64,000 nt of DNA, from positions 22,074,582-22,138,581 of the forward strand of contig NC_019864.2 in assembly GCF_002234675.1 (NCBI RefSeq), read 5' to 3'. Origin of the DNA: Oryzias latipes (lineage: Eukaryota; Chordata; Actinopteri; Beloniformes; Adrianichthyidae). Positions 23,240-48,900 of this stretch are shown here, one piece after another. Numbering within the stretch: position 1 is the stretch's first letter; each line of letters begins with the position of its first letter. Position numbers and translations under genes: made by a program. The notes under the pieces were generated by a model. It searched no databases. It saw only the letters and a program-made list of their open reading frames with translations, and had not been told where the DNA came from.

Positions 23240-24358
23240 TTAAGGATGGATCAATGTTTTAGTCCTTGGGTCACAAGGTCTCAGGTGATTAATAAGCTGC
23301 TGCTCCAACTTCTGCAAAGCACTCTGAGGCAGAAGGTACTTCTGTATTATTTCCACCACATCCCTTTCAGTCGAGCGCTCATAGTCCTCTTTGTTTTTGA
23401 ATGGCAAGTGTCCGGCCAGCTCACAGAGAGCAACGTTGAAGGCAGACTCCTCTTTGGCACCAAAGCAGGCCATTCTGGGCCAGATGACAATCCGCACACC
23501 GTTTCGCAACTGGCAATCCTTGTTGGTTTGAGCACAACTGTAGGGCGGACATCCTCTGGTCAAGAACAGGTTGTGGGCAACATTGTTGTCCACAAGAAAA
23601 TCTGTGACTTGACAAACCACTTCAGCTACTTTCTCCACCGTATCTGCTTCGGCGTAAAACACAAATCCTCCAGGGAATTCTTGAGAGAGATAAAGTCCCT
23701 TTTCTGGTAGTAAAGGCTCCACCGGTATGGATTCGATCTTAAGCTCATGGTCGAGATAATATCCATGAAGGTGTAAATGATTGACAGACGCAAATGCACC
23801 AAGACTATTGAACCCAACTCGAAAACTGGGGTCTGAGCTCAGCAGAACAGACTCCATGCTGATCCGGATTGTGGACTTTGTCAGGATTTGTGGGAAGCAT
23901 CGCGAGGGATCGGGAATAAACAGACAATGGCCAAACTCCAGTGGACTCACATTGATCATTACAAACATCTTGGAGGGTGAAGGCGCCAGCCCGTCATCAG
24001 GCAAAGCTGGGCTTCCATCTCTGCCCTTCACCATTTCAAATAGAACTTCATCTGGACTGATTTTGTTAAAGTTAAACTGTTTGCCATTAAACTCCTGCTT
24101 AATGCTTAATATCTCCTGAGGCTTTCTTCTCTCCGTTCCTCGTTTAATATTCAGCTGAGCCACAAAGCCGTACGGACCTGGCAGGACGCGGGTTTCTAAA
24201 GCACTCAGCTGGTAGCGGAAGAGCCCTTTCTCCATCCTGTCAGTCCAGCCGGCCCGAATGGCTGAGTCAAACACTGTAGGTGGCGGCGCCATCTTGTCAC
24301 TCCCCCGACACACTTCAGTGATGAAGTCCTGCTGGGTGTACACAAACTGAAGCGTCAT
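23240..24358 (-). CDS. gdpgp1: GDP-D-glucose phosphorylase 1
   Basis: The enzyme splits GDP-glucose with phosphate to glucose-1-phosphate and GDP. It is thought to clear wrongly made GDP-glucose from the cytosol. The coding region is one exon of 372 codons (human protein about 385). The start chosen is the ATG of MTLQF; the open frame reaches farther upstream only through a splice acceptor (GTGAACAG, exon edge at 24365), so earlier codons are not translated. The GalT/HIT-type catalytic motif HLHLH is at about residues 194-198, preceded by FNSLGAFASVN as in the family. NVSPLEFGHCLFIPD is also typical. A non-coding 5' exon probably ends at 25326, making one 5' UTR intron that hosts a mobile element. 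The nearest neighbour upstream on the other strand is the titin-like gene. Confidence 0.95.
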   Translation of the reverse strand: MTLQFVYTQQDFITEVCRGSDKMAPPPTVFDSAIRAGWTDRMEKGLFRYQLSALETRVLPGPYGFVAQLNIKRGTERRKPQEILSIKQEFNGKQFNFNKISPDEVLFEMVKGRDGSPALPDDGLAPSPSKMFVMINVSPLEFGHCLFIPDPSRCFPQILTKSTIRISMESVLLSSDPSFRVGFNSLGAFASVNHLHLHGYYLDHELKIESIPVEPLLPEKGLYLSQEFPGGFVFYAEADTVEKVAEVVCQVTDFLVDNNVAHNLFLTRGCPPYSCAQTNKDCQLRNGVRIVIWPRMACFGAKEESAFNVALCELAGHLPFKNKEDYERSTERDVVEIIQKYLLPQSALQKLEQQLINHLRPCDPRTKTLIHP

Positions 24359-24500
24359 GGTCAATCTGTTCACAAAAAAGAAACAAAGTTAGTTATGACA
24401 AGAGAGGCGTTTTGCTCCTGAATCAGCTGTTCACATTTCTAGTATATTAACACAAAAAAAAATTAAATCACCCCCTAAACAGGAAGATAAAATTGTTTAT

Positions 24501-25121
24501 AAAGTCCCACTCCAATCATCATTTAATCCACTATAACAGTGTTCCCAGTGGTCTTTAAATTATGATAATGCCACTATTTTTTAGCCCAAATACAAAAATC
24601 TGTGTTGTTTTCTTGGGCATAGTTTCTTCTAGGACATAGTTTCTACAGAAATTCCCTCCGAGTTGTGGCAGGGAATGTTGGTGCGGAGCCTCCTTCCCAT
24701 CAACCCTTTCTTTACACTCTCCCCCGCTAACTTACAGCCCCAAACCACCCTAAACATATCATTTGCAGTGCAACTAAAATTGCGAGCAATATAACAGCTA
24801 TCCAGTCGTAAGGTTTTTAGCCAGAAGCCAGCTCAGACGAGGAAAACAAAGACGTGAATGGATCTATTTCTCTACAAGTGGATGCATCAGAATGGGGCAG
24901 AGCAGGGAGCTTGTGGCCTGCCATAGCAGCTTCTACGTCACAACTACAAGCTTTTTCCAAAGGCTCCTGCTACTAATTCACAACGATTTGAATAAGGAAA
25001 CACTCAAAAAAAATGTTAAACTTAATTTTCTTTACATATCCTCATCATGAGAAATATGCCACAAGAACATGTTTAAAAAAAACACACCGAAAACATGATT
25101 TTCATTAGAGTGGGGGTCTTT
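24501..25121 (+). mobile_element. non-autonomous DNA element, AAAGTCCCACTCC family, copy A
   Basis: A 621-base element in the 5' UTR intron of gdpgp1 starts AAAGTCCCACTCCAATCATC and ends with the inverted counterpart ATTAGAGTGGGGGTCTTT. Three more copies lie at 43696-44259, 56274-56705 (inverted) and 61623-62161 (inverted). Shared inner landmarks include TTGTTTTCT, ACTTACAGCCCC, GTGGATGCATCAGAATGG and GCCACAAGAACATG. The superfamily is not certain, as I see no clean target duplication. Confidence 0.75.
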
Positions 25122-25325
25122 CAATATTTTACAATATTTGAAAAAATTATTCTTTTGTGAACCAGAAAAAAAGAGCATGGCCTTGTATCTGCCACAAAGT
25201 TTTGTCAAAAAGGGACGAAAACCTACAGGGGGAAGTTACTTCTAAGCAAACATCTCTGTAGTCAAACGCAGGTTTAGTCTCACAGACAGTGTCACAAACT
25301 AACATCCTTGTCGTTAAGCCCTCAC

Positions 25326-25490
25326 CTTTTGTGCTTTCATTCGGTGTTTAAACTGTAATCTTGGAGCGACAGTGGATTAAACGCGTTTTTAAGAACATTT
25401 TTACGTGGACTAAAATGAATTACATTTCAACAACACCGGTTAGCTGACGTAACCAACTTCCGCGTTTTACCGGGAGGATTTCCGGTCTAG
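25326..25490 (-). promoter_or_regulatory. gdpgp1 promoter and 5' UTR exon
   Basis: On the minus strand a donor AAAG|GTGAGG ends a non-coding exon at 25326. Just upstream is a CpG-bearing segment with two ETS-type TTCCGG/TTCCGC sites (25455-25490), followed by ordinary AT-rich DNA. This is the look of a TATA-less housekeeping promoter. The transcription start is not resolved. Confidence 0.45.
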
Positions 25491-26419
25491 TTTTTCAGAA
25501 TGAAAGTCGTCAAATTTAAATTTGAATGATAATTAGGAATCTTCGAACTTTGTTTATTTTTTAACAAGAGGTTTAAATATATTAACACATATGTCAGCTA
25601 AGATTTTTGTTTTTGACCACGAGTATTTTACTGCAAATATTTACAAATATATCACAGATTTGTTGTATTTTTTTTATTTAAATACAAAAGTTTAGCAAAC
25701 AGGAAAAAAAAGTATGACTGCTTTACATCAAAACAATACAATGAAGGAGAGCCAAAAATGTCTTTAATATGCCCCCTGCCCCCTTTGAATTCAATTTTAC
25801 ATAGTCAAATTAATTAAATAATCAATAAGACTTGCAAAAATCATCAAGTACTGAAAAGCACCATAATGATGACAAATAGCATGATTGTCCATATTTGTAC
25901 ACACATGTGATACTATAAAACAAAACAAAAAACACATAAATAAATAATCTTTTCATTTTTTAATCTTTTGCTATCCTTCATATTTTATCAGCACAATAAT
26001 TTAACAAGGGTTCTTCCTGGTGGGTGACTCATAAATGTTTACTTAGTTATTGAAGAACCATTTTATATTGTGTTTTAATATAGTGTCTTTTTATAAGACA
26101 ATCGGTCACTCCTAACAGCCTATTAAGCCTGTTTCATTTAACAGAAATAGAGTAATGAAAGGCTGATGAGTAATTTTACAGTTTTTCATAGCTGACCTAT
26201 ATAGACTAAACTAATACTGAAAGAATGAGCAGCTGTCCAATCCTGCTCTGCCTATTTTTGTCACCTAGTGCTCTTGCAGATAAGTAAGCAGTGAGCTATG
26301 ACAGTCTGCTTTAAAGTGTTTGACTTCACCACCTTCTGTTTCTTACAGCTAAGCATCTAAAAAAAACAGAATTTAAAAAGGCCACTTGTTTGTTTTATAA
26401 AGGTGCAGAAAGAACAAGG
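25491..26419. other. spacer upstream of the titin-like gene
   Basis: AT-rich DNA without a recognisable gene. The stretch just before the first coding exon of the titin-like gene ends GGTGCAG|AAAGAACAAGG. It could be a splice acceptor, so a separate 5' UTR exon and the true promoter may lie in this spacer. Confidence 0.35.
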
Positions 26420-29400
26420 ATGGAAGCAGGCAAAAATGAAGTAAGTGTCACTTTTTAACAATAACTTTAGAGGTAATCTATTCAGAATGATTCTTCAGTT
26501 GTTTACAGACAATTCTGTAACCTCAGTGATTACTTAGTGGTTTTGGTTACTTTTAAAATTGTGATAATTATAAACCAACATGCGTTAAGCAACATATGGC
26601 TGACCCGTTTGCTGTAACTCAAGTTATTTTTAACACCATCAACTGTGTCTCCTTCAAACGACCACAAAAAGTATAAATTACTTGATAGTTTCTTCAAACC
26701 GTTGAAAGGAAATGGGCCACATGTCCGATTTGACATAAGCAAAACATAATTTTACATTAAAATGACCAGATTTATATAAAAAAAAAGGTTTTTATATGCT
26801 TGCTTGTTTTTGACCTCTCTTTTTTATTCACATCTTGTTTTAGATGAGAGACAAATCTGAGGGACAAGATCAGAGACTCACAAATGTTACGCACGTTTCT
26901 GAACAGAAGCTCACGGGTGAGGCTTTACCACCCCCAACACCTTTTGTTCAAGGTATGGTGTGCATGCAACATGCCATAATGCAGCCTCAGAATCTTCCTT
27001 TAAAATTTTATTGAAAGTATTGAACAGATTTATACCAGTTTCTGTGTAGAAGAGTAAATCATTGCAAACTTTTGTGTTCATAAAAATGAGAAAAAATAGT
27101 GTAAAGACAAAGATATCCCATTCTCATCAAGTGGGTGGTCTCTTTTAACTTGTGATTTGTTTTTAACAATTCAGCTCAGGCTGCTTCCTTTGAGGGTCAA
27201 GAAACGCCTGCCCGGACCAAAGAAAAAGAAAATGCTGTCAGACCAAAACTCCAAATAACTTTTAGCACTTTTACTGTCAAGAATGGCGAAAATCTGCAAG
27301 TGGAGATCCCAGTGGCAGGGAACCCAGTACCAAAGATTGAATGGAAAAGAGACGCACAAGTAGTTAAGGAGACGTCAAGGCTAGAAATTTTAACCAAAGC
27401 ATCATTAACCATCCTTCATATACGGCGTGCTGCCAGGGAACACTCTGGTCAGTATTCTGTCACAGCAAGTAACAGTGCAGGAGAACACACTGGAGAAGTC
27501 ACTGTTGTTGTTCTAGAAAAACCAGATCCACCCAAGGGCCCGGTGGTTGTTCATGAAGTTAGTTCTGATTATGCTGTCATTTCTTGGGAGCCACCAGAAT
27601 ATACAGGAGGCTGTCAGCTAGACAATTACATAGTGGAGAAACGTGTGACCACCAGCACAGAGTGGCAGACTGTCTCAACAACAACAGTGAGAACCACAAT
27701 CAAAATTACCAAGCTGAAAACAGGAAGCGAATACCAATTCAGAGTTTCTGCAGAAAACAGGTATGGGAAAAGTGCTGCAATCACCTCTCCAATTGTCATG
27801 GCACAATATCCATTCAGCGTGCCTGCTGCTCCAGGAACACCCTGTGTGTCCTCTGTGACAAAATACAGCATGGTGGTGGAATGGGAACCGCCACTCAGAG
27901 ATGGAGGCAGCCCTATTATTGGGTATCACCTTGAACGTAAAGAGAAGAACAGTATTTTATGGACCAAACTTAACAAATTAGTCATCCCTGACACTCGTTT
28001 CAAAGCAAGTGGCCTAGACGAAAGCATTGAGTATGAATTTAGAGTCTTTGCTGAGAATATTGCTGGACTGAGTCCATCAAGTAAGTCATCTGGATGCTAC
28101 ACTGCAAGAGACCCATGTGATGCACCTGGAAAACCAGAGGCTGTTGTTGTAACCAGAGACAGCATCACGCTTCAGTGGGCCAAACCACAGTATGACGGGG
28201 GAAGCTCCATTACAGGCTATGTAATTGAAAGAAAAGATCTCCCAGATGGCAGATGGATGAAGGCAAACTTCACAAATGTCATTGAGAATCTCTTCACAGT
28301 CACGGGCCTAACAGGAGGTCAGAGTTATGAATTCCGGATAACTGCAAAGAATGGTGCTGGTGTTTGGAGCTCACCTTCAGAATCTTTAACCATCATGGCT
28401 CAGGATGTCATCGAAACACCGACCATACTCATAGATCCAAAGTTTAAGAGCACTATTGTTGTTCAGGCTGGGGAGACATTTGCTATTGATGCTGATTACT
28501 TTGGAAAGCCTCTCCCGGAAATAATGTGGCTAAAAGATGGAAGAGAGATTGACAAGGTTACACCGAGAATGGAGTTTAAAAACACCCTGACTCATACCAC
28601 TCTCACTGTCAGGGAATGCACACGTGTGGATGGAGGACGCTTTGCTTTGAGTCTTAGTAACATAGGAGGAAGTACATCTGTTTCAGTTAATGTGAAGGTC
28701 TTGGACAGACCTGGTCCACCTGATGGTCAACTAAAAGTTAAGGTTCTGAGTGCAGAAAAGTGCAATCTTTACTGGAATCTCCCAATAAATGATGGAGGTG
28801 CTACTATCACTCACTATATCGTTGAAAAAAGGGAGACAAGTCGTGTCACATGGACATGTTTAGACTCAAATATTGAAGCTGTGAGCTACAAAGTTTCAAA
28901 ACTGGTACCTTGCAAAGAATATGTGTTCAGAGTTGCTGCAGTGAACAAGTTTGGTGTGGGTGAATTCTTGGAATCTGAGCCCTTTGTTGCCAAAAATCCT
29001 TTTACAACACCCAGTGCTCCTTCAAGCCCTACTGCCAGTGCAGTAACTAGTGACTCTGTTCTGCTAACATGGGAGAGGCCTGTGAGTGATGGGGGCTCAG
29101 AGATAGATGGCTACATTGTGGAGAAGATTGATAAAGAAGGCGTCAGATGGACCAAATGCAACAAGAGACGGCTAAATGACTTGTGTTTCAGGTGTACAGG
29201 GCTGACAGAAGGACATTACTATCAGTTCAGAGTTCTTGCAGAAAATGCAGCTGGTATGGGTACACCAAGTGAGCCAAGTGAGTACATAAAAGTATGTGAA
29301 GCTAGTTATCCACCCGGTCCACCTACAAACCTAAAGGTCACAGACTATTCAAGTAGCACTGTGTCTCTGACTTGGTCAAGGCCCTTCTATGATGGTGGAG

Positions 29401-32400
29401 CACCCATCACTGGATTTCTGGTTGAGATGAAGGGTTCAACAGACGAGGAATGGACTACATGTACCCCAAACACAGGTATAGAGGACACAAACTACACTGT
29501 GAAAACACTAAGAGAAAACACAGAGTACAGTTTTCGTGTAAGAGCCATAAATGCAGCAGGTGTTGGAGAGCCAATGGATTTACCTGGATCTGTACTTGCA
29601 ACAGAAAAAGTTGAGGCACCTGAGATTGAGCTGGATAGTGCTCTGAGAAAGATTGTAAATGTTCGAGCAAGTTCCACTTTACGACTCATTGTTAGCATCA
29701 GGGGAAGGCCAGAACCAGAAGTGAAATGGTCAAAAGAGGGTGGAACTCTGAGTGGGCGAGCTCAAATTGAGGTCACCAACTCCCACACTGTTTTAATTAT
29801 AGAGAATGTCAACAGAAATGACAGTGGAAAGTTTGTGCTGACTGCTGAGAACTGTGGTGGCTCAAAATCTGCTTTCATCAGTGTTAGAGTTTTGGACTCT
29901 CCAAGTGCACCATCAAATTTGGAGATAAAAGATGTAAAGAGAAATTCTGTATCACTTTCATGGGAGTCACCTCTTTTTGATGGAGGAGGTAAGATTTCAC
30001 ATTACATTATAGAAAGGCGAGAGGAGTCCAGGAAAGCATTCACAAGTGTCTGTAGTGACTGTGCAAGAAATTCCTATAAGATTGACAATTTACAGGAGGG
30101 ATGCTTTTACTATTTCCGGGTCTTGGCTGTAAATGAATTCGGAACTGGACTTCCAGCAGAAACCGCTGAACCTGTTAAAACGTCTGAGGTTCCTCAGTCT
30201 CCTGGCAAAATATCATTAAGCGAAGTCTCTTGCAATAGTCTAAGACTCTCTTGGGAAAACCCTGATCATGATGGAGGGAGCAGAATTTCCTCTTACATTG
30301 TAGAAATGCAAACTAAGGGAGATAATACATGGATATCATGCTCAGAGAGTAGGGCACCAGAACTGCTTATTGAAGGTTTGACAAAAGGAAACGAGTATTT
30401 TTTTAGAGTCAGTGCCATAAATGAGAAAGGAAAGAGTGAACCAAAGACCCTATTGGCACCTGTTATGCTTAAGGATAACAGTGCCAGTCCAGTTATTCTT
30501 CTCTTGTCCAACACATTTAATGTGAAGGCAGGTAATGATCTGGGAATTGATGTTCCATTTAGGGGGCTTCCACAGCCAACAGTGGTTTGGAAAAAAGATG
30601 GCAATATACTGAAAGAGACAAGTAGGGTAAATGTACAAACATCTGACTCAACATCTCAGATCAAAATCAAAGATGCATCCAGGACTGATGTTGGTGTTTA
30701 TGAGGTGACCCTGACAAACTCTGTTGGAACCACATCAGCTGAAATCTTTGTGAATGTCTTTGAGAGACCTGGACCTCCTACTGCCCTCATTTTGGACGAG
30801 TTGAGTGCTGACTTTGTATCTTTGTCGTGGCAGCCACCACTATACTCTGGTGGATGTCAGATCTCTAATTATGTTGTTGAGAAACATGACACAAGCAGTA
30901 CAGTATGGCAGACTGTCTCAGCTACAGTTGCAAGAACATCAATCAAAATTTCTCGATTGACCCAGGGAACTGAATACCAATTTCGTGTTGCTGCAGAAAA
31001 TCGCTATGGAAAAAGCCAATTTGTGGAAACACAAACTGTTGTTGCACAGTATCCTTTTAAACCACCTTGTCCACCGATACACCTCCATGTTGAACTGGCC
31101 TCAAAGTCAGCTATTGTCATTGCTTGGAACAAACCAGACAGCGACGGCGGCAGTCCCATTGTTGGCTATTATATTGAAATCAAAGATCAAAGCAGTATTC
31201 TGTGGACAAAACTAAACAAAATTCCAGTAACAGAGAATCGATATAAGGTGACAAGTGTAGAAGAGGGTCTTGTCTATGAATTTCGTGTCAGTGCTGAAAA
31301 CATTGCTGGTGTGGGACCCTGCTGTAAACCCTCTGAGCCTGTTGCAGCCAGGGATCAGTGTGATTCACCTGGCAATGTCACAGTTACCAATATAACTAAC
31401 ACGTCAGTATTGCTGTCATGGGTAAAACCAGAATATGATGGTGGAGCTAAAATAACTGGATACATTGTTGAGCGTAGAGAACTTCCAGACAGTTGTTGGC
31501 TCAAGTGTAACTTCACAAACTTATTGGACACCTACTTGGAAGTCACAGGCCTTGAAGAGGGCAAACAATATGACTTTCGTGTTATTGCGAAGAATGCAGC
31601 AGAGCTTCTCAGTCTACCCTCTGACAGCACTGGACCTGTAACAGTACAGCATGATGTGGAGCCACCCAGAATTATAATTGATGATAAATTTAAACAAGTG
31701 GTGATTGTCAAAGCAGGAGACAGCCTTAAAATAGATGCTGAAGTTGTAGGAAGCCCTAACCCAACTGTGTTCTGGCTGAAAAATGGACGAAATATTTGCA
31801 CAACAGGAAGGGTTGAGATAACTACAACAAAGACAAATACTTCTCTACTCGTAAGAGAGTGTGTTAGGAAAGACTCTGGACAGTATACTCTGACCCTGCA
31901 GAACACAGGGGGCACCATATCTAAGGTTGTTACCTGCAAGGTATTGGACAGGCCAGGTCCTCCTGTTGGACCTCTTCAAGTAACTGGATTGACAGGAGAA
32001 AAATGCACCCTGTCCTGGGACCCTCCTAATGAGACTGGTGGTGCTGAGATCACGCATTACATTGTCGAAAAGTGTGAAACCAGCCGTGTTTCCTGGACTC
32101 TAGTATATGATGACATAGTGGCGACTACATGTAAGATAACAAAGCTGCTCAAGGGAAATGAATATCTGTTTAGGGTGAGGGCCGTCAGCAAACATGGAGA
32201 CGGTGAGATATTAGAAAGTGAACCAGTCAAGGCCATAGATCCCTTCAATGTCCCATCTGCTCCAACGGATGTCGAGGTTACAAGTGCAACTTGTGAAACT
32301 ATGACTGTATGCTGGAGGAGGCCTGCCACCGATGGTGGTAGTCGCATTAGTGGGTACATTGTAGAGAAAAGGGAGAAGCAGGGTGTCCGCTGGGTTAGGG

Positions 32401-33556
32401 TTAATAAAAAAACTGTCTATGACCTACGAGTCAAAGTCACCGGCCTGCATGAGGGATGTGAGTATGAATTTAGAGTCTTTGCCGAGAATGCAGCTGGTCT
32501 AAGTGAACCTAGTTTACCCTGTCGTCTTACTATGGCAGAAGATCCCAAGTTTCTACCTTGTCCTCCAGCAAAGCCCATCATAACAGATTCCTCCAAGTCT
32601 TCAATGACTCTGATGTGGAACAAACCACTATTCGATGGTGGAACGCAGATCACGGGGTACAATGTTGAGTTCAGAAAAACAACAGAGGAAGATTGGACTG
32701 TTGGTGTTAACAACACTGACAAGACAGAGTCTACAGTAACTGGACTCACCACTGGGTCAGAATACGTTTTCATTGTCAGATCAATTAACAAGATTGGCAT
32801 CAGTGATCCCAGCCCTGAAACAGATCCTGAAGTAGTCATGGACAGAGAAGAGATACCCAGGTTCGACATCAACCCTGAGATGAGAAAGACGTTGCCTGTA
32901 AAAGCTGGAAGCTCCTTCACCTTGACTGTTCCATTTGTAGGCAAACCACCTCCCACTGTGTCATGGGACAAAGCGGGAGTAGATCTTAGAATCAGAGGAA
33001 TTATCAGCACAAGCAGTTCCATCACATCTATCAGCATTGAACAAGCAACACGGGATGACTCTGGTAAATACAAGGTCAAACTGCAAAATGTTGCTGGTTC
33101 TACATCGTTAACCCTGAATGTGAGAGTTTTGGATTCACCTGGACCTCCAGCTAAGATAATAGTTAAAGATATCACCAAGAACTCTGCAACTGTTGCATGG
33201 GACATTCCAGAGAATGAGGGAGGGGCTGCAGTAACAAACTATTTTGTTGACCTAAGAGATATTAGCAGAAAGGGATGGACAAGACTCACAGACAAGTGTA
33301 AGAGATTGTCATATAGGATCTCTGATCTGGAGGAAGGAGGAATCTATTTCTTCCGAGTCACAGCTGAAAATGAATACGGCATTGGGGTTTCAGCTGAGAC
33401 CAAAGAAGGAACAAAGATAACAGGTATTTTTTTAACAGAGACATACACATCCATAATGCTACACTGAACTAAAATGTTTGACATTGTGCTTAAAATGGCG
33501 TCTGTCTTTGTTTTATTCCAGATACAACGGAGTTGGAGACAGACCAAGGGGCTTAG
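26420..33556 (+). CDS. titin A-band-like Ig/FN3 protein (mini-titin)
   Basis: Coding exons 26420-26440, 26844-26952, 27175-33423 and 33522-33556 join in frame to 2,137 residues. The start MEAGKNE precedes a GTAAGT donor; the last exon adds DTTELETDQGA and a stop. After a 67-residue low-complexity head, domains run Ig-FN3x3-Ig-FN3x3-Ig-FN3x2-Ig-FN3x3-Ig-FN3x3-Ig-FN3 (6 Ig, 15 FN3). FN3 domains carry the titin signatures WxxPxxDGGxxIxGY and YxFRVxAxNxxG. The order is titin's large A-band (C-zone) super-repeat of 11 domains, in rotated phase. In titin this region lies along the thick filament and binds myosin and myosin-binding protein C. Here kinase, PEVK, Z-disc and M-band regions are all absent. 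The long exon resembles the giant A-band exon of titin, which suggests descent from a titin fragment. A sarcomere role is inferred. I know no established symbol. Confidence 0.85.
27241..33423 (+). repeat. internal 11-domain super-repeat, nearly two units
   Basis: Unit 1 (Ig1 to FN3-8, about 27241-30480) and unit 2 (Ig4 to FN3-15, about 30481-33423) align domain by domain at a spacing of about 3,243 bases (1,081 residues). Matching landmarks are GGCQLDNYIVEK / GGCQISNYVVEK, SILWTKLNK / SILWTKLNK, and VRECTRVDGG / VRECVRKDSG. Unit 2 lacks the final FN3 domain. Confidence 0.85.
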
Positions 33557-33825
33557 TGTGTGTTTTTAAATCCTGCTTTTCTTTTTTCCCCCTTTTTTAA
33601 ACTTCTTTTTTTCTTCTTCAAATTAAAAAATAATTATCACCTGACAATGTTGACATCCCCAATTCTTTCTCATGAATCTTGTATTTGTTTTAATTTGTTG
33701 CTTTGATAGTAATTTGAGTTTAATGTAAGAAATGTTTATTATCTAGTAAATACCAAATGACTTATTGAACTAAATGGAAATATCTTCTAGTAAACACTGT
33801 TTGTGCCATTTTTAGTGAACTCTCC

Positions 33826-33831
33826 AATAAA
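33826..33831 (+). terminator. poly(A) signal of the titin-like gene
   Basis: AATAAA lies 270 bases past the stop codon of the titin-like gene. Confidence 0.5.
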
Positions 33832-35132
33832 CCCATAAGTGTAGAACTTTTAAGCCAGAACAAAAGTTAATCAGTTGTCCTGTTTTCTTTGAAGTTCTTA
33901 AATTATGATGACTTAAAACTCTTGCTAGTGGGGGATTTCAACTGCAGTGGACAGCAGAATCTGATCTACAATAGATAATCTTACAATGTTGAAAAAGTAC
34001 TGTGCTTCTCAAAATAAAAAAGTCAATTTGAGAAGAATTTACATATTTTAAAAGTAAAAGTTAAACCAGTTGACAACTTTTTTTTGCACTTCTCTGATCT
34101 AACCAGTCTGGATCAAATAAGAATCCACACAGACGTGTTTACCAAGCAAAATTTAAAAAATAAAATAAAAATAGGAAAAGAGGCATTACTTATAGGCTTT
34201 GTAAACAAATAAATGATTTAGCAAATCTGGAAAAGAAATACATTTTATACAAACTAATTAAGTGTTGAGGTTGTAATTGTAAACACTTTTAAATTTGCAT
34301 AGAAATAAAAAATAAACCAGTAATAAAGGAAAAGAAATAAAATGGTATTGTCCTGGTGAGCTGTTGTTAATAAAGTTTGAATGTGTGCAAAAGCATAGTT
34401 TTCTCCAATTTCATTGTCCAAGTGGACAGTGACAGGAAAACTTACTTTTTCAAACATCTTATTAAAGACTTGGACACAGGCTTCATTCTCTATGGTATCT
34501 TTACAACATTCACATTTAATTGGTTTGTAAAACATTAAAGTGGCAAGCTATTTAAAGTATATAAGTAAACAAAACATTAAATCAAAGATATAGATTATAT
34601 AATATTCAAAGAATACAGAGAAAGAAATGGCTAATAACAAATAATACCCACAAACATATGCACTAATATGTGCACACACAACTGGAACTAAAATATAATA
34701 GTTTTTAAAATTATTGTTAATTTTGTACAAACAATGAATAAGTTAAAGGAATAAACCAAATTCAACAATTGAGTAAATAATTCGGTCATACTGTGGAGTT
34801 ATATATGGAAAAGAACAATACATGTATTTTTTTGAGTACCGTTTAAGTTATTTTTTGTCTAATATTGTTGAAAAAACGTGGGCACATATATTAATTTACA
34901 AACAGTAAATATAAAATACAAAATATTCAAATTTTGCTTAGAAAATTTGTAAACCTTGTAAAGCGAAAACCTTTTTTTATGTGTGTTGTCAGTAAAAACA
35001 GTTACGTAGTTTCAGGAAGAAGAAACTGACGGGATTGGCTGGTTAAGCAAACTCACCTATCCAGTCTGTAGTTTGAACTGCAGCAAAGCAAAACAAAACA
35101 CAGAGTGAATTTTCCTGTCAAAAAAGTTGAAG
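33832..35132. other. spacer before the cib1 pair
   Basis: AT-rich DNA. From about 34975 onward it aligns with the promoter region of the second cib1 copy (shared GTTACGTAGTTTCA), so the duplication begins here or somewhat earlier. A weak exon-like frame on the minus strand near 34440-34510 is not supported. Confidence 0.4.
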
Positions 35133-36456
35133 ATGGGAGCCACAGCCAGTCAACTTGATACAGGGAAGCTATCCGAATATGAAGTAAGTGTACAAAATGC
35201 AGTTCAGGTAAAGTTTTTGAAAACAATGGATGGCAGTAAGAGAATAGTACTCTATATCTAACGAGACAAAAAGCTACTAACTATTTGACAGGGGAAGCAA
35301 AAATTACTAGTACTACCAAGATTTTGCTTGTTCAACCTGTTTTTGTTTGTACAGGTGTTAGTTTCAAGTCAAATGGAAAAAAAATGTAACTTTTTTATTC
35401 TTCTTTTATAGGCTTGTGACTTTCAAATGCAGTCTTCTTTAACTTTTAGGAGCTAACCTTCCTTACAAAACAAGAAATTCTTCTGTAAGTGCAGATTTTT
35501 TTATAGAATTTAAATCTGAAATGAATGTACTTTGTGGTTAATTGCTGTCACCTTTCAGTGCTTACAAGAGATTTGACAAACTGGTGCCGAAGGAGGAAAA
35601 AAATCGTATAGATTACAGAGTTCGCATGGAGGACATCCTGGAGCTGCCTGAACTCAAGGTGATGTGGCAATTCACATGAAAACATTCAGTTTCTTTTCTG
35701 GCTTCATGGTGGCTCGTGGGGTTTTTGCTGAGGAAGTTGCTCTGGTGAAATAAATAAACAAAAAATTCAAACTGGTTTGACTCTTGTTCCGCTTATAGTT
35801 CAACCCTTTTAAAGAGAGAATCTGCAAGGTGTTCTCCACATCTGACAAAAAGGATGGAAGCCTCGACTTTGACGACTTCCTTGATTTTTTAAGTGCATTC
35901 AGTGAATCAGCAACTCTGGAAATCAAATCTCACTATGCATTCCATATATTTGGTAAATACCATGACAAATTTAAAGTTGGCACAAAAATATGTATGTAAA
36001 ATTCCACTTTAAAAAAAAGTTTTTTATTGCATTAACTAGTTTGATCATTTCTAGACTTTGAGGATGATGGGACCCTTGGTCGTCAGGATCTGAAGCAACT
36101 GGTTAACTGCTTGACTGGTAAGGCAGATAAGACAAGCCTAACTGCTGATGAAATGAAACAGCTCATCAACAATGTGAGTTCATCTGGGCTTCTTTTCCTT
36201 TCAAGTTTGGGGTGTACCTTAATCTCCCTTGAATGTCATTTAGATTCTCGCAGAGTCAGACATTGACAAGGATGGAACTGTGAACCTCTCTGAGTTTCAG
36301 CATGTCATTTCAAGATCACCAGATTTTGTCAGGTGAATGAAGCCTTTATCCATGTCATCACTACTATATCCCCTTGCAGTTTATTCAGAATCGTTCTGCA
36401 TGTTCTAACATTTTCTATAACATTGTTTTTGCAGCTCATTCAAGATTGTACTGTAA
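35133..36456 (+). CDS. cib1: calcium and integrin-binding protein 1, copy a
   Basis: Seven exons: 35133-35183, 35450-35484, 35559-35658, 35799-35952, 36055-36173, 36244-36332, 36435-36456. They encode 189 residues. CIB1 is an EF-hand protein that binds the integrin alpha-IIb tail and kinases. The start MGATASQL has Gly-2 for N-myristoylation. ELTFLTKQEILL, the NPFKERICKVFSTS core and the C-terminal SSFKIVL match vertebrate CIB1. EF-hand loops are DFEDDGTLGRQD and DIDKDGTVNLSE. The first has Glu where copy b and human CIB1 have Asp at loop position 3. By my count it differs from copy b at 32 of 189 positions, and at most of the informative ones it is the copy less like human. No stop or frame break is seen, so it is probably functional but evolving faster. 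Confidence 0.93.
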
Positions 36457-36618
36457 AGCTCTTGACTGGACACTGCTTTAAACATTGTAAGTTACTTTTA
36501 AGTCTAAAGATTGTTTTTTACGGCCCTGCCTTAAGTTTTACTTAATTGTGAATTAAAAATTCTACTTTTTTTTCAAAGATGATGTCTTGTTTAAATTGTG
36601 TGGTACAATGTTTTTTCA

Positions 36619-37150
36619 GAGGTTTTGTGGGATGTTCAGGAAGAAATTCTTTCCCATTTGTATTTGCAGCAGAAGTGTTCCAGGGGTCACACAACCACAC
36701 CAACAATGCGCCCTGAAAAACTCCACACGCTGGGGTTCATCTAAACTTCTAAATGATTGGTGTCCAAACTGGCCATATTCACATGAAAACAAAGAGTAAA
36801 AAAAATTAGACGTTTACATCAAGTCAGCACAATATAATTTTGTACTTAAATTCATTCAACTTCTAATCCGTTTTGTCCCTTTCGGGTTCACGGGGTTTAT
36901 TCATACAGCTCAATAATACAACACAGTTGTCTCAATGCGCTTCCTCAATGGGCTTCACACCGGCAATTGTACAAAACCTACTGGGTTCTCACATTCATAC
37001 ATAGATAAGTGAAGAACAGCTGCTTTCAGGAAGAGTCTGTGCTGCCAGCACCGCCCCAGGCTGACACAGAATGTCTGTTCAATTTGATGATTGGTCTCAA
37101 GGTTTAAATTTGGTTAAACGTACCCCACCCAAGTATAAAGACAGGGATGG
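36619..37150 (-). pseudogene. rccd1: broken duplicate of the last two exons of rccd1
   Basis: On the minus strand 36801-36619 aligns with rccd1 exon 8 ([21 protein letters not shown]) and 37150-37111 aligns with rccd1 exon 7 and its donor. About 14 bases present in the working exon after RVEFFRA are missing here, which shifts the frame. The other six exons have no counterpart. It was carried along with the cib1 duplication and was never a whole gene. A retroposon fragment separates the two exon remnants. Confidence 0.8.
36860..37085. mobile_element. retroposon fragment (L2-like or complex)
   Basis: The segment begins with CTAATCCGTTTTGTCCCTTTC and GGGTTCACGGGG, the style of fish L2-type retroposon tails, and continues with CACACCGGCAATTGTAC. 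It is absent from the paralogous position near 39640, so it came in after the cib1 duplication or was lost from unit 2. The exact ends are uncertain. Confidence 0.45.
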
Positions 37151-37787
37151 ACAGTCAAGAAAAAGATAGCATATTCGCCAGAGATTTATTTTTCTAAGAA
37201 TAAAAATTAAACCTTTTTCTTTAGGCAAAAAAAACCCCCACATTTAATCCAAAGACTGATTTTTTTTTATTGAGCAATCAGGAAACTGTTAGAATCAATT
37301 TTACTATACAAATGCAAGCTTTTTTAAAATTTTGTTTGAAAGAAACATTTGAATGTAAAAAAAAAAACAGTTTTAAAAGGAAATAACTATGTGAGTGATC
37401 TGTTTATTGTCAAACCCATTGCACTGCTGAGCTACATAAAGAAAATCATATTGAAATATATATATTCTAAAAAACAAAATGAAAAATAAAAAAATTTAGA
37501 AAAAGAAAGGGGATTTTAACTTTCCATGATTAATAAATAATAACAAGCACGTGCACGCACATGTAAACACAATTACGATACAATAGTTGTAACACTATGG
37601 TGGAAAAACGGAAACAGTCTTTATCTACAGACATTACGTAAAAAACATACAAACTATTCAAATGTTCCTCACAGAAACGAAGCACAACATTTGTGAGCAG
37701 TGGCGCCCTTTTTTGTATGTGTGTTGCCATAGAAACCGTTACGTAGTTTCATAAAGGAAGAACCGACTGGAAACGGACTTGGCTATA

Positions 37788-37796: not shown

Positions 37797-37884
37797 AGGT
37801 AATGCGATCTCACTTCGAGTGTTTTGTAGTTGAAACTACCAAAACAAAACTAAAAGCGACTTTTTCCAGTTTAAAAAGCTGAAG

Positions 37885-39171
37885 ATGGGAACCACAGCCA
37901 GTCAACTCGATAAAGGGATGTTATCCGAATATCAAGTAAGTGTAAAAAGTGCCGTCAAAATGAAGGTAAATGGAGGAACAGACACAGTACGGCGACATTA
38001 TTTTGCCATAAGCGGAAAAAAGCTCTAAAAGATTAATTTGACAGGGGAAAAGAAAAAAAACCCTATGTTTAATACCACCAAGATTAGGTTAGTTCTTTTT
38101 TTAAGCCATTCGTACTTATGTTTGTATGTGAGCTTTATGTAAACTTACCGTAAAGCCAGGCGGAACCTTTTGTTGTTTTTCATAAATGTGTCACTTTCTA
38201 ATGTAGTCTTTTATACTTTTAGGAGCTAACCTTCCTAACAAAGCAAGAAATTCTTCTGTAAGTAGAGATTTTACATTTTTTTACATTTCTGTACTTTATG
38301 GCTGATTTGCTGTCGCCTGTTTCAGTGCTTATAAGAGATTTAGCGAGCTGCTACCGAAGGAGGAAACAAACGGTATAAGTTACAGAATTCCCATGAACGC
38401 CATCCTGGAGCTGCCTGAACTCAAGGTGATGAGGCAATTCACATGAAAACATTGTTGTTGTTTTTCATGGTGACTCGTGGAGATTTAGTTGAGGAAGTGG
38501 CTCTAAATCTAAACCGATCTGACCTTTGTTCCTGTCATAGACCAACCCTTTCAACGAGAGAATCTGCAAGGTGTTCTCCACATCTGACAGCCACGATGGA
38601 AGCCTCAACTTTGACGACTTCCTCGATCTTTTGAGTGCCTTCAGCGATTCAGCGACTCTGGAAATCAAATCTCACTATGCATTCCGTATTTTTGGTAAAT
38701 AAAATGACAGAAAAATGTATGTAAAATGCCCCTTTTTTGTTGTTGGGTTAACTATTTCATCCTTTCTAGACTTTGACGATGATGGGACCCTTGGTCGTCA
38801 GGATCTGGAGAAACTGGTTAACTGCTTGACTGGTGGGACAGGGGATACAAGCCTAACTCCTGATGAGATGAAACAGCTCATCGACAACGTGAGTTCATCT
38901 GGGCTTCTTCTCCTTTCAAGTTTGGGGTGAAGCTTAATCTCCCTTGAATGTCATTTAGATTCTTGAAGAGTCAGACATTGACAAGGATGGAACCGTGAAC
39001 CTCTCTGAATTTCAGCATGTCATTTCAAGATCACCAGATTTTGTCAGGTGAATGAAGCCTTTATCCATGTCATCACTACTATATCCCCTTGCAGTTCATT
39101 CAGCATCGTTCTGCATGTTCTAACATTTTCTATAACTTTGTTTTTGCAGCTCATTCAAGATTGTGCTGTAA
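37885..39171 (+). CDS. cib1: calcium and integrin-binding protein 1, copy b
   Basis: Seven exons with the same lengths as copy a: 37885-37935, 38223-38257, 38326-38425, 38541-38694, 38770-38888, 38959-39047, 39150-39171; 189 residues. Features are Gly-2 (MGTTASQL), ELTFLTKQEILL, canonical EF loops DFDDDGTLGRQD and DIDKDGTVNLSE, QLIDNILEESD and terminal SSFKIVL. It is closer to human CIB1 than copy a and keeps an ETS promoter site, so it is likely the conserved copy. It converges with rccd1, with stop codons 241 bases apart. The role is calcium-dependent regulation of integrin and kinase partners. Confidence 0.95.
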
Positions 39172-41949: not shown

Positions 41950-42927
41950 TTGTTGTACTTTTGAATAGCTTTTTTCCCCGTTCAAAAAAACTTTATTTAA
42001 AAAAAAGGAAGAAGTAGTTGACAATAGCGTAGTATTTTAAAATTAGAAATAAAAAAAAGTGATAGAAAAAAACAAAATAGGTTGTCATTTTTAAATCCAT
42101 TGTTGGTAATTTTAGCATGATTCATTTTAAAATCTGAATTAAATGAAAACCGAACAGACAAATGAAAACTTTGTATTAGTCCACCCCAATGTTTTTTAAT
42201 ACAACTGATTAAAAATACAAGTTAAAGCTATATTATTACCCATTTTAATTTGGGTCATAAAGAAAAATAAAATGTACATGTAAGAAAAAGGAATGCCATA
42301 AGGATGAAGATGCAAGTCTAGAATAAGCAGTTACAGTTTCTGGAAGTGTATAAAAAATTGAAAAGGGAAGAAGTTAATATTTTCTTTAAAGCAGAGTAAA
42401 ATAAAAAATAACCAGGTAGTTTGCATGTATTTAAATGTGTTCAACTTTATTAGATAACCGATTTATAAGGTAAGAAAATACATGTGACAAAACGTTACCA
42501 AATATAAATTTTGCTTTTCTGTGCACATGTTTAAACTAAATTGCCTTGAGAGCAAACTAAACATAAAGAACTGGAATGTAGTGGAAATAATTGTGCCATA
42601 AACGTTTTAAACAAAGTACATCATGTGATTGTGAGATCTTTAGCAGTTCATATTTAAAGAAAGACATGTTAAAATTAGAGGCAATACATAAAAAAGCAAG
42701 ACCAAAATAGTAGAAAATGTATAATACAGAAGTGGATTCAAGTGGATTTAGTAATTTTGAAGGTCAAAAGCCACATAATATGAGAGCCTGACAACACTCA
42801 AATTCTTCTGTCACATGTTTGTTTTTTTAAGAGACCTTTCATAAATTACTTTCAGTTGTAATAAAATTTCCTCTTTCATGTAAATTACAACTCCTAGGTG
42901 TCACATCCACACACTGCAGCCGTGTTG
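41950..42927. other. spacer between rccd1 and unc45a
   Basis: AT-rich and gene-free. It should hold the unc45a 3' UTR (minus strand) at its right end and the rccd1 5' end at its left. A minus-strand AATAAA near 42446-42451 is one possible unc45a poly(A) signal. Confidence 0.4.
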
Positions 42928-45900
42928 TTAGGGCTCAGTTCCTTCCATCTTCCCCTCTCTGCTTCTGATGAGGCCATACTCCACTGCTTTGTCCAGGCAG
43001 TCCTTGGCAATCTTTGACACCGGATCAGATGTGCCCTCTCCTCCCTTAGCAAGGACGGTAAGAATCTCCAGGACTTCACTCTCCATAAGCTTCTCAGTCA
43101 GATCTCTATCAGCCTGGATCATGTTCTGAACAATGACCACCCCACGATGACGCAGGTCAGATATTTCGCAGAGCAGTAGAGCCTGCATTATCTCCAACCA
43201 GTGAGTGGTCTGTAAAGAGAGAGGTTAAGAGTGTAAAACATTAAGTCAGCTATAACACCAGCACGTAAGAATGTTGTCAGAGTGATTTCCATACAGTTCC
43301 AGGAATGCGTTTGCAGAGCTCAGGCTGCTCAGACGTCAGCATGGCCAGAGTTCCTGCAGCAGCTTTTCTTAGCCTCTCATCGTCCTCACCACTATAGAGC
43401 ACAAGTAGCTTCAGCCGATCGTTTCCTGTGGCCAGATACAGCTTCTGAACCTGAGGACACATTACATTGGTGTCTTTTCTTCTTTAGATTTCCAGCACAT
43501 TCTTTATCTTTAATGATCTGTGCATTACCTCTGTACTTAAAACCAAATTACACATGCACTCCGTTGCTGAAGCTCTGACAAGATCCTGCTCCTCAAACAT
43601 ATAGCCTTCAATTTTTGGTACAGCTTTTTCTTTTATTATCTTTTGCCTGTAAACAAAAATACAAAAAAGGGAGTAAAACATGTAAAATTATTTTTAAAGT
43701 CCCGCTCTGATCATCTTTTGATCCATTTTAAAGCATTCCAAGTGGTCTTGTAATCATGATTATGCCATTTCACTGACAGTATGGGTTTAACATTAAATGG
43801 TGTTTTTGTTTTTAAAACAAAAAACCTATGTTGTTTTCTAGGACTTAGTCTCAGCAGATCGACAGTAGTTCATTAGAAATTCATCCGTCTGTTTACGTGC
43901 ACTCCCACTAGCTTACAGCCCCTCACGACCCCAACCTAAGATTGCAGTTGGAACAAAAATGCCAAACAATATTGGAGCTATCCAGCCATACAGTTTCGAG
44001 CCAGATGCCAGCTCAGACAAGGAAAACGAAGATGTACATGTATCTAGTCGTCTGTGAGTGGATGCATCAGTATGAAGTGGTGCAGGGAACTTGTGGCTTG
44101 CCATAGTAGTTTATACGTCTGCCTACAGCATTTTTCCATCTGTTCCTTACAATGATTTAAATAAAGAAATTGTGTTTACACATGTCCTCCATCATGAGAA
44201 AAATGCCACAAGAGCATGTTAAAACACCAAAGTGATGATTTTCATTGGAGTGGAGCCTTGAGCAAATAATAAGTCATTATTTTTTTAAACTGTGGCTTTG
44301 GGGAGCACTATATGATTATACAAAAATGATAAAACTGATACAGCAACTGCTCAAGTTACATAATCCTCAAAATGGTTTTTGGATGAAAATATTAAACATA
44401 GCCTGGATTATGGCCTAAAGAATGTGGTGCTTACTGTACAAAAGAGTTATGATTTTTAAATTAGTTCACCAAACATGGACAATGAATCTTTCATTCATTT
44501 CCTAAACCCGTTTTGTCATGAGACACCCTGGTCAGGTTGCCAGTTTGTCGCAGGGCCACAATCAAATCAGACACCTTTGCATACTCACATTCACACCTAG
44601 GGTCAATTTAGAGTAACCAATTAACCTATGAGGCCTGTTTTTTGGATGGTGGGAAGAGGCCAGAATCCCCGGAGAAAAACCATGCATGCACGTGGAGAAC
44701 ATGGAAACTCCACACAGAAAGGTCCCCCATTGGTGTTCTGCTTCAGGGTCCCCAGGACTTCTTGCTTCACCGCGCACAATAAATTAATACTTTAAATACC
44801 TGGATCGACAAACCGTGGGAATAAATGTGTCTATTTTTTAACCAACTGATATGAGCAGTTTTACAGGGGAAGACTTCCCCCTAGTGGCCAACCTGAGTCT
44901 TTCACTGATGCCAGCCAGGTTGGTGAGTGCCATTAGTGCTTCAAAATTCTGCAGCAGGGTGCAATTGAGGCTCAAAAGGCTCACAAGTGGACGCACGACT
45001 TCATAGATCTGAGGGGAAAAATGAGGTTTGCAAAGTGAAATAAATATCTCAAAGAAAGTTGTTTGCATTACTATCTCCCATTCTTACCCTCTCTCCTGGA
45101 AAAGCAATCTCTGGATTGGATGTGATGGCAATTTTTGCCAGGGCTTGTGCAGCTTTGACTTTTCCTGCATCTGTGTTTTCGGTTGCGAGTGGAATCAGAG
45201 CTTTCCCTCCACCTTGGGCCACCACGGTTCCCCTGTCTTCCTGCCGTTCTACCAAAGCCAAGAACACCCTGCCAAGGACACGTGACGTTAAGCAACAGAG
45301 AGGGGGGTCAAACACACATTTTCCTTCCTTACCTGGAAATACACTCTTTACAAGCCTCAGTGAGGGCAGGACTCTCTTGTTTAACCATGCAGGCCAATGC
45401 AGATACAACTCCAGCTTCAAGGAGCTTAACCAGCCTTTTCTCCACATAAGAAGGTGCATCCTGACACATAAAGGGTAAGGACAGTCAATTAAAACTCCTG
45501 CAAAGTCCGATTCATATTCTATTTGATTATTAAGGATGGATTTTTCTGGCAGATCTACAAAATAAGGCAACACAAAAATGAAGAATCCTACTTTGGGGTG
45601 CTCCTCAGGCACATGCTGCTTTGCATACTTGGCAAGCTCCACCATCTGGGGGTCTGGTTTCTCTACTTCATAGCTGTTTGTGCAGTTCACTAATGTAGAG
45701 CCCACAGCGAAGAGCACAGTCTTATCTTCAGACTGCACAACCACAAAAAAAACAACAACAACAACACATTTTTCAGCCACCATCCAAAACAAGGTTTCAT
45801 TTTTAGATTTCTTCTCTTCTGTTTGGTAACTATTTAGAGAAACTAATAAAATAAACAGGTAAACCTTTGCCAGTTCAAACATGGCCGTGAGAGCGTGCTT

Positions 45901-48900
45901 GTCCTCCACCAAGTCTTCCTTTACATCAGCATCAAAAGTCAGGTAAGCGAGCCCTTCCACAGACCAGCGGCGGGAGGTTGGAGGTAGAGACTCGTTACAC
46001 AGCCACCTAACAGAGGAGAAAAGTGAGGCCAACTCCAAGTCTGTATCACTTCACTGCAGTCATGTCAACAAGTCAGAAATGATCACATTTTTTTAATTGA
46101 ATTCCAGGTTCGGATTAGAGCATGGAAACCTACTTCCTGCACTGCTTGGCAAGTTTGCCCGTGGATCCTTCTGCAAACTGCTTCATGCTGAAATCTGTGC
46201 CTCCTGCTGACCCAAGCTTGCACAGACCCTGCGATAACATTAAATGATTAGTTTTATCTGTGACCAGAGGAATGCACAACTCTGTGGAAGCACGTTTATG
46301 CCACAAAGGTGGCTTTAAACATTTAGAGACTGAGATTTTTTTAAATGAATTATAGATTGAAACTTTTGAATTTTTAATAGGTTGAATTATTTTTGGAAAG
46401 CCCCTCAACTAAGGGTTCAAAAAATAAATGATGGCGCACTTCCTGGTTGTAACAACAACACTTGCCTGACATAATACACTGGGTAAAGGTTCAGCATAAA
46501 AAAAACAATTAGCTGGAAGCCAAAGTTTGCAAAGAAAAATAAGAGTTTACTGTTCTGTGTGGACCAAAGAATTGATTCTTCTAGTCTTATTTTTAACTTA
46601 AATGTTTCTAAGGAGAAGGGTCTAAATATTTGACTAACACACTGGTGGTGTATAAACCCAGGAGACCACAACGCTCGCAAGAAAAGAGGCTGCCTTTGCT
46701 GCTCAAAGTTTATAAATAAATAGTGGGATGGTAATTTTTAGCCTGAATGCAGCTCAACTTTGATGCCAACAAACCTGATGGTTTTAGAAATAAAGCATTC
46801 ATCGCAGTTTTTTTTCGTGTCAACTTAAAACCCAGCTCTGTAAGAAAGTCTTATACGTACTTTTAAATACATTTAGTATCGTATAATAGTGTTCATCGTA
46901 TTGAATTTAACACTTTCATCTTTCATCTTTCAAGTTTGACGTTTCTCAAAGAATTTTTCTTTTATTACTTGAATTGCTGGGTTGCCATGGATATCTCTGA
47001 GGCATTTTGAGATCGTATTGTTCAAAAAAGTTGCTAAATAAATAAAGTCGCCTTAAAAGATTAGCCTGCGGAGAGCTTCCTTTCACTAAGCAGTACTACT
47101 TCCCTCTATATGAAGCACTTACCACCAGGGCTCTCACGCGTATCCTGTCATTCTCGCTGGTCTTGTAGAGGTCTTTCAGAAGAGCCACGCCATTGGCTGT
47201 GATAAAGGAGGCCCTCTTGGCTTTGCCCGCCGCGTGTATGAGAGCTTCGACTGCTATTTGCTGGTGAGTAACATCTTTGGAGGCACAGAGCGAGATCACT
47301 GCATCCATCATTCCGGACATTTCTAGAGTTCGGTTTCCCACATCGCTTGGCCCTTGAAGGAGCACAGACACCGTTTGGATGGCGCGCAGCTTTGCATCTA
47401 GAGCAGACTGGCTAAAATGTTGCCTAACCACACAAAAAAGGAAAAATGTTTCAGACACTTAAGAATAACTTTTGCTTAAACTAAATAAAGAGCCAAAAGT
47501 TAGTGGAAAGTGAAATATGTGTTTGGCTCACTGAATGTATTCTTCACATATTTTGTTAAAGTTCTCCCTCTCTTTGTCACTCTTCAGGTCATCGTAGAGT
47601 TTGCTAAGCAACACAGAGCAGCTCATGTGAGTGTTGTCCGTAAGAGGTGGTCCATCTGAGAGTTCAGGAATGCTTCCGGCAACCTGCAGGATTTTCTTCA
47701 GCCCTGCAAGACAGCAAAGTGTGCTTTAATGTGCAATGGAGTGCAGAAAAATCACTTGCCTATATAGCAAGTATATTTTCTGTCCTTTTTATGGTTTTTG
47801 GGTAAGAAGAATGATTGACTTCATGCAGGTGTGTCTCATACCTTGGTCGATAACCCATAATGTGGGTGAATTGTCTGGGTTTTTGAACGACTTGCGGGGA
47901 ACTTGTTTGACCAGCAGGTTGATGGCGCTGTCTCTTCCCGGCCCAGAAACATTAGACGCTGGCATCATTTCAAGAAGGTGGCGCAACATTGAACGCAGCT
48001 CTTTGGACGGCTCTGGAATTTGTGCAAAGAATTACGACTTAGCAGAGGGCTGGAAATGCAGCCATATTTGCTTTGGTGAGTGTTTCGACTCACCGGGTAG
48101 CATGGCTTCTTCCTTTCCCCTAATCTCTCTTTTCATGCCCTCCGTCAGAGCCTCAAACATCACCTGCAGCAGGTGGCAGGCAGCCAGAGACACAGTGGAG
48201 GCTCCTGACCCCATTACAGCACACAGCTGGTCCATCCCCAATTCATTCACTATAGCCATGGTCTGGGAATAAAAAAGTGCAAGTCATTAAAAGTCTGAAA
48301 GTACTCACATAGGTTTAACAAAATACTTCCTAACAACTCCTCATTATGAATGTGCAAAGGAATTTCCTGAGATACATCATTTGTATTTTAAGGGTATTGC
48401 CATACTTACCCGTGACTGATGTTCTGTGCACAACCCAACCAAAGTCCTGAGAGCCGAAAGGACAACCTCTTCCTGCTTTGACTGAAGGAGTTTTTGAATT
48501 AGCTTCACTCCATCATTGCGAAAGATCTGCTCAGCTCCTCCCTCGTCTCGAGATAAGACCACCAGGTTCTGAGCTGCCTGAAAATTCATACACGAATTTG
48601 ATTATGTCGGGGAAACCTTGATTCAAAGACTCTTCAAGAAAATGTCTATGATTGAGACATTGAGGCCACCTTTACCTTCTCTCGATCTGAGTCTTTTGAA
48701 GCATCATCTAACAGGATGGAGAACATTTGCTGCACTCGAGCATCTGTGGAGTTTAGTTGGACTGACTAAAAAAAAATATATATTTTTTTAAACAGTAAAA
48801 AGAATTAGATTTCTAAGGTTTCCTTCCAAGAAAACCCATCAACAACTAACCAGCTCATTTGAACCACTTTACCTTTTGCTGAATCAGTGCTCCCAGTTGT

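Follow-up and report, generated by a model that had tools for sequence, protein, structure and literature searches.

An apparent stand-alone gene derived from the titin C-zone in the medaka, Oryzias latipes

Can a piece of titin, the largest known muscle protein, exist as a gene of its own and, if so, where did it come from and what might it do? The question is raised by a locus at positions 26420–33556 (plus strand) of a stretch of 64,000 nucleotides from Oryzias latipes (medaka; assembly GCF_002234675.1, contig NC_019864.2, here C6:22,074,582–22,138,581); this whole stretch is referred to as the window. The predicted product of the locus has 2,137 amino acids and comprises six Ig and 15 FN3 domains, and will be called mini-titin. 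An earlier note, made from the letters of the window alone, had described it as a stand-alone gene built from the super-repeat of titin's C-zone. The C-zone is regarded as a template for the thick filament, and mice in which two C-zone super-repeats have been deleted have a shorter thick filament (PMC5648799). We describe mini-titin as a partial, autonomous paralogue of titin, undescribed among the literature matches listed: a segment of titin, it seems, has turned into a gene in its own right.

Domains in the register of the C-zone

All the domains lie in a single open reading frame (27156–33467, plus strand; 2,103 codons, open throughout), in which Pfam recognised 15 fn3 and six I-set stretches. 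With F standing for FN3, their order is Ig-F-F-F, Ig-F-F-F, Ig-F-F, Ig-F-F-F, Ig-F-F-F, Ig-F. As the earlier note had claimed, this is the order of the 11-domain C-zone super-repeat (Ig-F-F-Ig-F-F-F-Ig-F-F-F), of which mini-titin has, in register, positions 4–11, then 1–11, then 1–2. The super-repeats can be numbered by way of solved titin chains and of TTNB, one of two titin loci in this genome (see below). Domains A77–A78, which belong to super-repeat C4 (PMC10665226), have a sequence (3lpw) that is contained in titin chain 8g4l_bm, and the best fit of this chain in the giant exon of TTNB is at residues 1202–2277 (69%). From C4 placed in this way, counting of super-repeats along TTNB gives the copied piece as C6 positions 4–11, C7 positions 1–11 and C8 positions 1–2:

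27234–29603, plus strand: C6-like part, positions 4–11, with the register taken from C4 and the collinear TTNB segment; domain starts Ig4 27234, FN5 27519, FN6 27813, FN7 28110, Ig8 28404, FN9 28707, FN10 29001, FN11 29304
29604–32843, plus strand: C7-like part, positions 1–11, complete; domain starts Ig1 29604, FN2 29898, FN3 30186, Ig4 30477, FN5 30765, FN6 31056, FN7 31353, Ig8 31653, FN9 31950, FN10 32244, FN11 32547
32844–33422, plus strand: C8-like part, positions 1–2; domain starts Ig1 32844, FN2 33135

A second titin chain, 8q6t_I (presumably from mouse; the structure label says only titin), fits best at TTNB residues 3943–5020 (67%), i.e., from C6 position 7 to C7 position 6. It can thus serve as an outgroup in the same register, in which mini-titin is 59% identical to it. 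Short ends excepted, the Ig and FN3 domains of mini-titin keep to the C-zone register throughout; the Z-disc, I-band, PEVK and M-band parts of titin are absent, and Pfam found no kinase domain.

A search of the PDB, taken as the best 60 of 240 matches, upheld the assignment to titin rather than to another family: the best matches were titin chains (1545 and 1522 bits), with myomesin at 102 bits. The best non-titin match was MyBP-C, which is likewise an Ig/FN3 rod of the thick-filament C-zone but scored 245 bits against 1545 for titin and has a different domain order. Neither obscurin nor IGFN1 was named among these 60 matches, which excludes them only as the best matches among solved chains. 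The invertebrate mini-titins twitchin and projectin are smaller Ig/FN3 proteins of the thick filament, kinase-bearing and ancient; they differ from the medaka protein in not being derived from a vertebrate C-zone exon, and the match to a twitchin chain was 60 bits.

Descent from one of the two medaka titins

The protein encoded by the exon that holds the 21 domains (exon 3, below) was searched against the genome (734,051,031 bases, 25 contigs), with 23 of 440 first-look candidates scored, so that the number of matches is a lower bound. The 41 matches comprise the window itself and 40 matches in two clusters on contig C21; no further dispersed copy was found among the scored candidates. Both clusters are titin loci, each having a giant C-zone exon (5,785 and 5,717 open codons) and a protein kinase exon:

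TTNA: contig C21, locus at about 0.96–1.12 Mb, giant exon 1083171–1100525
TTNB: contig C21, locus at about 27.24–27.42 Mb

TTNA and TTNB lie 26 Mb apart on the same chromosome and mini-titin lies on contig C6, which bears out the earlier statement that it is far from titin. It could be argued that mini-titin is a detached piece of a third, larger titin with other exons nearby, since the big exon, both ends of which are in phase 1, could be joined to more Ig/FN3 exons by splicing. However, profiles of its own Ig and FN3 domains matched no other frame of at least 25 codons in the 64-kb window (E up to 1), the 40 other matches from the scored candidates all fall in the two C21 titin loci, and the interval is closed on both sides by other genes, one that we take to be GDPGP1 and CIB1. 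These results render a third, larger titin extremely improbable and, with the lack of a Pfam kinase, agree with the stand-alone nature that had been claimed.

Within TTNB, the source of mini-titin can be located. The protein aligns to residues 3648–5713 of the 5,717 encoded by the giant exon, with 65.5% identity over about 2,067 amino acids and two gap openings, whereas the next best alignments of more than 1,000 amino acids to either titin have 42.7–51.5% identity (51.5% being that to TTNA in the same register), and further alignments of this length are lower still. The alignment of the DNA to TTNB spans 6,143 bases (68%) and goes no further than the splice donor of the giant exon itself. When each of the 21 domains was compared with the two giant exons, none had a better match than its collinear TTNB domain; for FN7A and Ig8B, TTNA gave an equal bit score. 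In addition, TTNA has three insertions in C6–C7 (19, 13 and 17 residues) that neither mini-titin nor TTNB shares.

The same relationship was obtained from a quartet tree over the roughly 1,080 residues covered by 8q6t: the topology ((mini-titin,TTNB),(TTNA,8q6t)) beats both alternatives by 61–63 log units (approximately unbiased (AU) test, p 0.0002 each). The branch lengths are 0.366 (mini-titin), 0.149 (TTNB), 0.424 (TTNA), 0.191 (8q6t) and 0.154 (inner branch). With the root placed on 8q6t, the quartet implies that the copy is younger than the split between TTNA and TTNB. As a rough inference, which supposes a steady pace in TTNB, the copying would lie about half way between the titin split and today. 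The branch of TTNA is longer than that of TTNB (0.424 vs 0.149).

The two titin loci, with their giant and kinase exons, and mini-titin beside them, stand in contrast to the statement of a 2022 review that medaka has one titin gene (PMC9575118). Medaka titin has been mapped to linkage group 21 (PMC6899042). Teleosts are described as having two connectin genes on one chromosome, from work on eel, zebrafish and fugu (PMC12198301). Mini-titin and this pair are alike in being products of the duplication of titin in teleosts, but the passages of that paper mention no third, partial gene. Among the literature matches listed, which did not extend to subscription papers and annotation databases, there was no description of a separate, partial or third titin C-zone gene; mini-titin may well carry a name such as 'titin-like' in a database.

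Gene model and coding constraint

Four exons, 26420–26440, 26844–26952, 27175–33423 and 33522–33556, give a spliced model of 6,414 nucleotides, i.e., 2,137 amino acids and a stop codon, which reproduces the coordinates and length in the earlier note. A start codon is present, all three predicted introns are of the GT...AG type, and the junction phases are 0, 1 and 1. The features of the model are:

26198–26235, plus strand: possible core promoter (weak), with TATA[AT]A at 26198 and a CAGCTG E-box at 26230
26420–26440, plus strand: predicted exon 1, with start codon, MEAGKNE, GTAAGT donor and phase 0, and with no homology support
26844–26952, plus strand: predicted exon 2, 109 nucleotides with a phase-1 end, from splice sites and an open frame
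27175–33423, plus strand: exon 3, 6,249 nucleotides, phase 1-1, with all 21 Ig/FN3 domains, backed by homology and codon constraint
33424–33521, plus strand: intron 3, 98 nucleotides, with counterparts of 102 nucleotides in TTNB and 75 in TTNA
33522–33556, plus strand: predicted exon 4, completing the split codon and adding the tail DTTELETDQGA and a stop codon, from an acceptor and an open frame
33826–33831, plus strand: possible polyadenylation signal, AATAAA motif

Homology and codon constraint establish exon 3; the three small exons are predicted from splice consensus and open frame only. Outside exon 3, similarity to titin is lost: a score as high as that of the 5′ side against TTNB was reached by 237 of 300 shuffles, that of exon 4 against the next TTNB exon by 248 of 300, and that of intron 3 against its no longer alignable TTNB counterpart by 104 of 300. 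In the genome search, the DNA at 26180–27174 and at 33424–34400 each returned only itself. Promoter motifs were scanned in the interval 25401–26420 and compared with mono-nucleotide shuffles. CAGCTG occurs once (shuffle mean 0.07) and CANNTG five times (3.1 in shuffles); TATA-like motifs are not enriched in this interval (three, against 3.6 in shuffles).

The retention of the splice donor of the giant exon, followed by an intron of a length similar to that in TTNB (98 vs 102 nucleotides), suggests that mini-titin arose as a DNA-level segmental copy, with a breakpoint probably within titin's next intron or exon. A retrocopy origin was considered and is not favoured: the homology stops at the giant exon's donor, and a predicted intron follows.

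Could the locus be a processed or decaying pseudogene, or an artefact of assembly, with no product at all? The pattern of changes at the three codon positions speaks against this. Mini-titin and TTNB differ at 23.7%, 17.9% and 57.6% of first, second and third positions, respectively; the third positions are saturated, as they differ by 58.5% between TTNA and TTNB. Where TTNB and TTNA agree, changes found only in mini-titin number 230 of 1469, 193 of 1578 and 408 of 855 sites (15.7%, 12.2% and 47.7% at codon positions 1–3), and the converse count for TTNB gives 10.3%, 6.9% and 47.3%. Despite these saturated third positions, the 2,083 codons of exon 3 are without a stop or frameshift, whereas 50 runs of a neutral simulation at about half of the observed divergence yielded a mean of 42 stops and a minimum of 25. 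The core tryptophan and the Y-x-F motif are retained in 15 of 15 FN3 domains, and the tryptophan in six of six Ig domains. A processed copy of an mRNA would be expected neither to keep the donor of the giant exon nor to have a predicted intron after it, and an artefact is opposed by flanking DNA that is single-copy and runs into ordinary neighbours. Repeats of at least 30 nucleotides in 24400–37500 are mostly the domain repeats themselves; those remaining are short, mostly AT-rich pairs with 71–78% identity, unlike the ends of mobile elements. The constraint is weaker than in TTNB, as would be the case in a pseudogene, but the codon pattern already contradicts a pseudogene or artefact, and we regard either as very improbable.

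Judged from exon 3, which the result on selection covers, mini-titin is an old gene under purifying selection that is weaker than in TTNB. Relaxed coding constraint, coupled with lack of a transcript, had been named in the earlier note as a sign that would speak against its reading; constraint is present, though relaxed relative to titin. Identity to TTNB is lowest in Ig4 of the C6-like part (45.3%) and in Ig8 of the C7-like part (52.5%), and the best-kept domains include FN9 (75.5%) and Ig1 (72.4%) of C7. By the method of Nei and Gojobori (NG86), the synonymous divergence (dS) between mini-titin and TTNB is saturated and has no finite value; therefore, no molecular date can be given.

Possible roles and genomic neighbours

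The explanation that we moderately favour is that mini-titin is an autonomous A-band fragment, i.e., an old, protein-coding, partial duplicate of titin that acts as a thick-filament accessory. After the two fish titins split, a piece of the giant C-zone exon of TTNB, from C6 position 4 to C8 position 2 and up to the splice donor of the exon, would have been copied at the DNA level and inserted between GDPGP1 and CIB1 on another chromosome, where it would have acquired a start, probably by way of small exons newly formed upstream, as well as a new 3′ end. Its product would be a rod whose 21 domains span about two repeats of the thick filament and which, if expressed in muscle, would most likely lie along the thick filament of the A-band as C6–C8 of titin do, offering two Ig position-1 docking sites for MyBP-C and two position-7 FN3 surfaces. 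Because the Z-disc, PEVK, kinase and M-band parts are absent, such a rod should neither carry passive force nor define the length of the whole filament. The origin, the register, the unbroken frame and the purifying selection are shown by the sequence itself, whereas muscle expression, attachment to the thick filament and a physiological role are proposed here, as is the earlier note's view of the product as a ruler fragment or decoy. More tentatively, mini-titin may be a third gene of the titin family whose product, a ruler piece of about two super-repeats, docks in the fish C-zone and modulates the occupancy of MyBP-C or titin there.

The domains that would make these contacts can be compared individually. 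Position-1 Ig domains of the C-zone bind MyBP-C, and position-7 FN3 domains have a conserved surface centred on LPDGR-x5-FTN-xx-D/E (PMC10665226). Mini-titin holds two position-1 Ig domains of the MyBP-C-binding type and two position-7 FN3 domains, in the first of which the motif is intact (LPDGR...FTN..E). In TTNB, the first position-7 domain (C6, residues ~3943–4040) has YPDTR and the second has LPDGR...FAN..D, and position 7 of C6 in TTNA has a two-residue insertion (LSSPDGR); the LPDGR motif is not strict in fish titin. The position-7 domains have 21 changes in mini-titin and 24 in TTNB, the other domains 223 and 111 (Fisher p 0.012), a contrast that was picked after the table had been seen and is a lead only. 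This lack of acceleration at position 7 hints at retained thick-filament contacts.

Several observations weigh against the accessory role. The second position-7 domain of mini-titin reads LPDSC...FTN..D, in which LPDGR is altered. Lineage-only amino acid changes over the 21 domains number 244 in mini-titin and 135 in TTNB, i.e., mini-titin has changed about 1.8 times faster. Consensus sites for MEF2, CArG and MCAT have no matches in 25401–26420, leaving one striking muscle-type motif only, and no homologues of exons 1, 2 and 4 were detected. Given the LPDSC in the second position-7 domain and the faster change, the binding function of titin need not have been preserved.

The altered motif and the faster evolution also suit the main rival to the accessory reading, namely a competitor or decoy that occupies the thick-filament sites of titin or MyBP-C, or sequesters MyBP-C or other partners, and thereby tunes or limits titin-dependent assembly in some muscle or at some stage. 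Two MyBP-C-type Ig position-1 domains, together with no part for end-to-end integration, would fit such a protein; however, the sequence expected of a pure competitor is no different from that expected of an accessory, and we consider competition rather unlikely. Alternatively, a change of promoter may have led to a new role outside the sarcomere, as a scaffold in the cytoskeleton, in the nucleus or in development. Both ends of the gene lack similarity to titin and are unique in the genome search, from which it follows that titin's muscle control was probably not carried along, and both Ig domains at position 4 rank with the least conserved (45.3% and 56.2% identity to TTNB). Against this stand the position-7 domains, which have not been accelerated like the rest in the post hoc comparison above, and a role outside the sarcomere seems to us quite improbable.

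How does mini-titin compare with known products of titin? With C6–C8 of titin it shares domains and order (65.5% identity to TTNB and 59% to 8q6t_I), but it is a separate gene on another chromosome, with 21 domains, new ends, and no Z-disc, I-band, kinase or M-band part. The titin product Cronos, which runs to the M-band end, similarly lacks the N-terminal part. Cronos is a short titin from an internal promoter of the titin gene, expressed apart from full-length titin (PMC4720518), whereas mini-titin has a locus of its own and ends within the C-zone.

If a gene for such a piece is maintained, a laboratory fish would offer a direct test of whether the piece can bind and act independently, and the titin family of fish would gain a partial member. 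We know of no natural example of an isolated, unanchored C-zone piece that binds and acts on its own; if the reading is true, mini-titin would show, as an experiment of nature, what part of the ruler does when it is not anchored.

The genes that surround mini-titin are as follows:

23240–24388, minus strand: presumably GDPGP1, a reading frame with no significant match in Pfam
~35131–36460 and ~37850–39100, plus strand: two tandem CIB1-like genes, directly downstream of mini-titin
~42894–49811, minus strand: UNC45, with one exon matched and the extent judged by eye

The second of the CIB1-like genes was identified by its likeness to the first, its EF-hand scores being below the Pfam cut-offs. 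The window also contains an exon of an Rh type C ammonium transporter, an alpha-mannosidase 2 and a gene with RCC1 repeats that is probably RCCD1, a set of neighbours that we take to resemble human 15q26. By synteny, the UNC45 gene is probably UNC45A. UNC45 is a family of myosin chaperones, and lies about 10 kb from mini-titin; the proximity is likely a coincidence.

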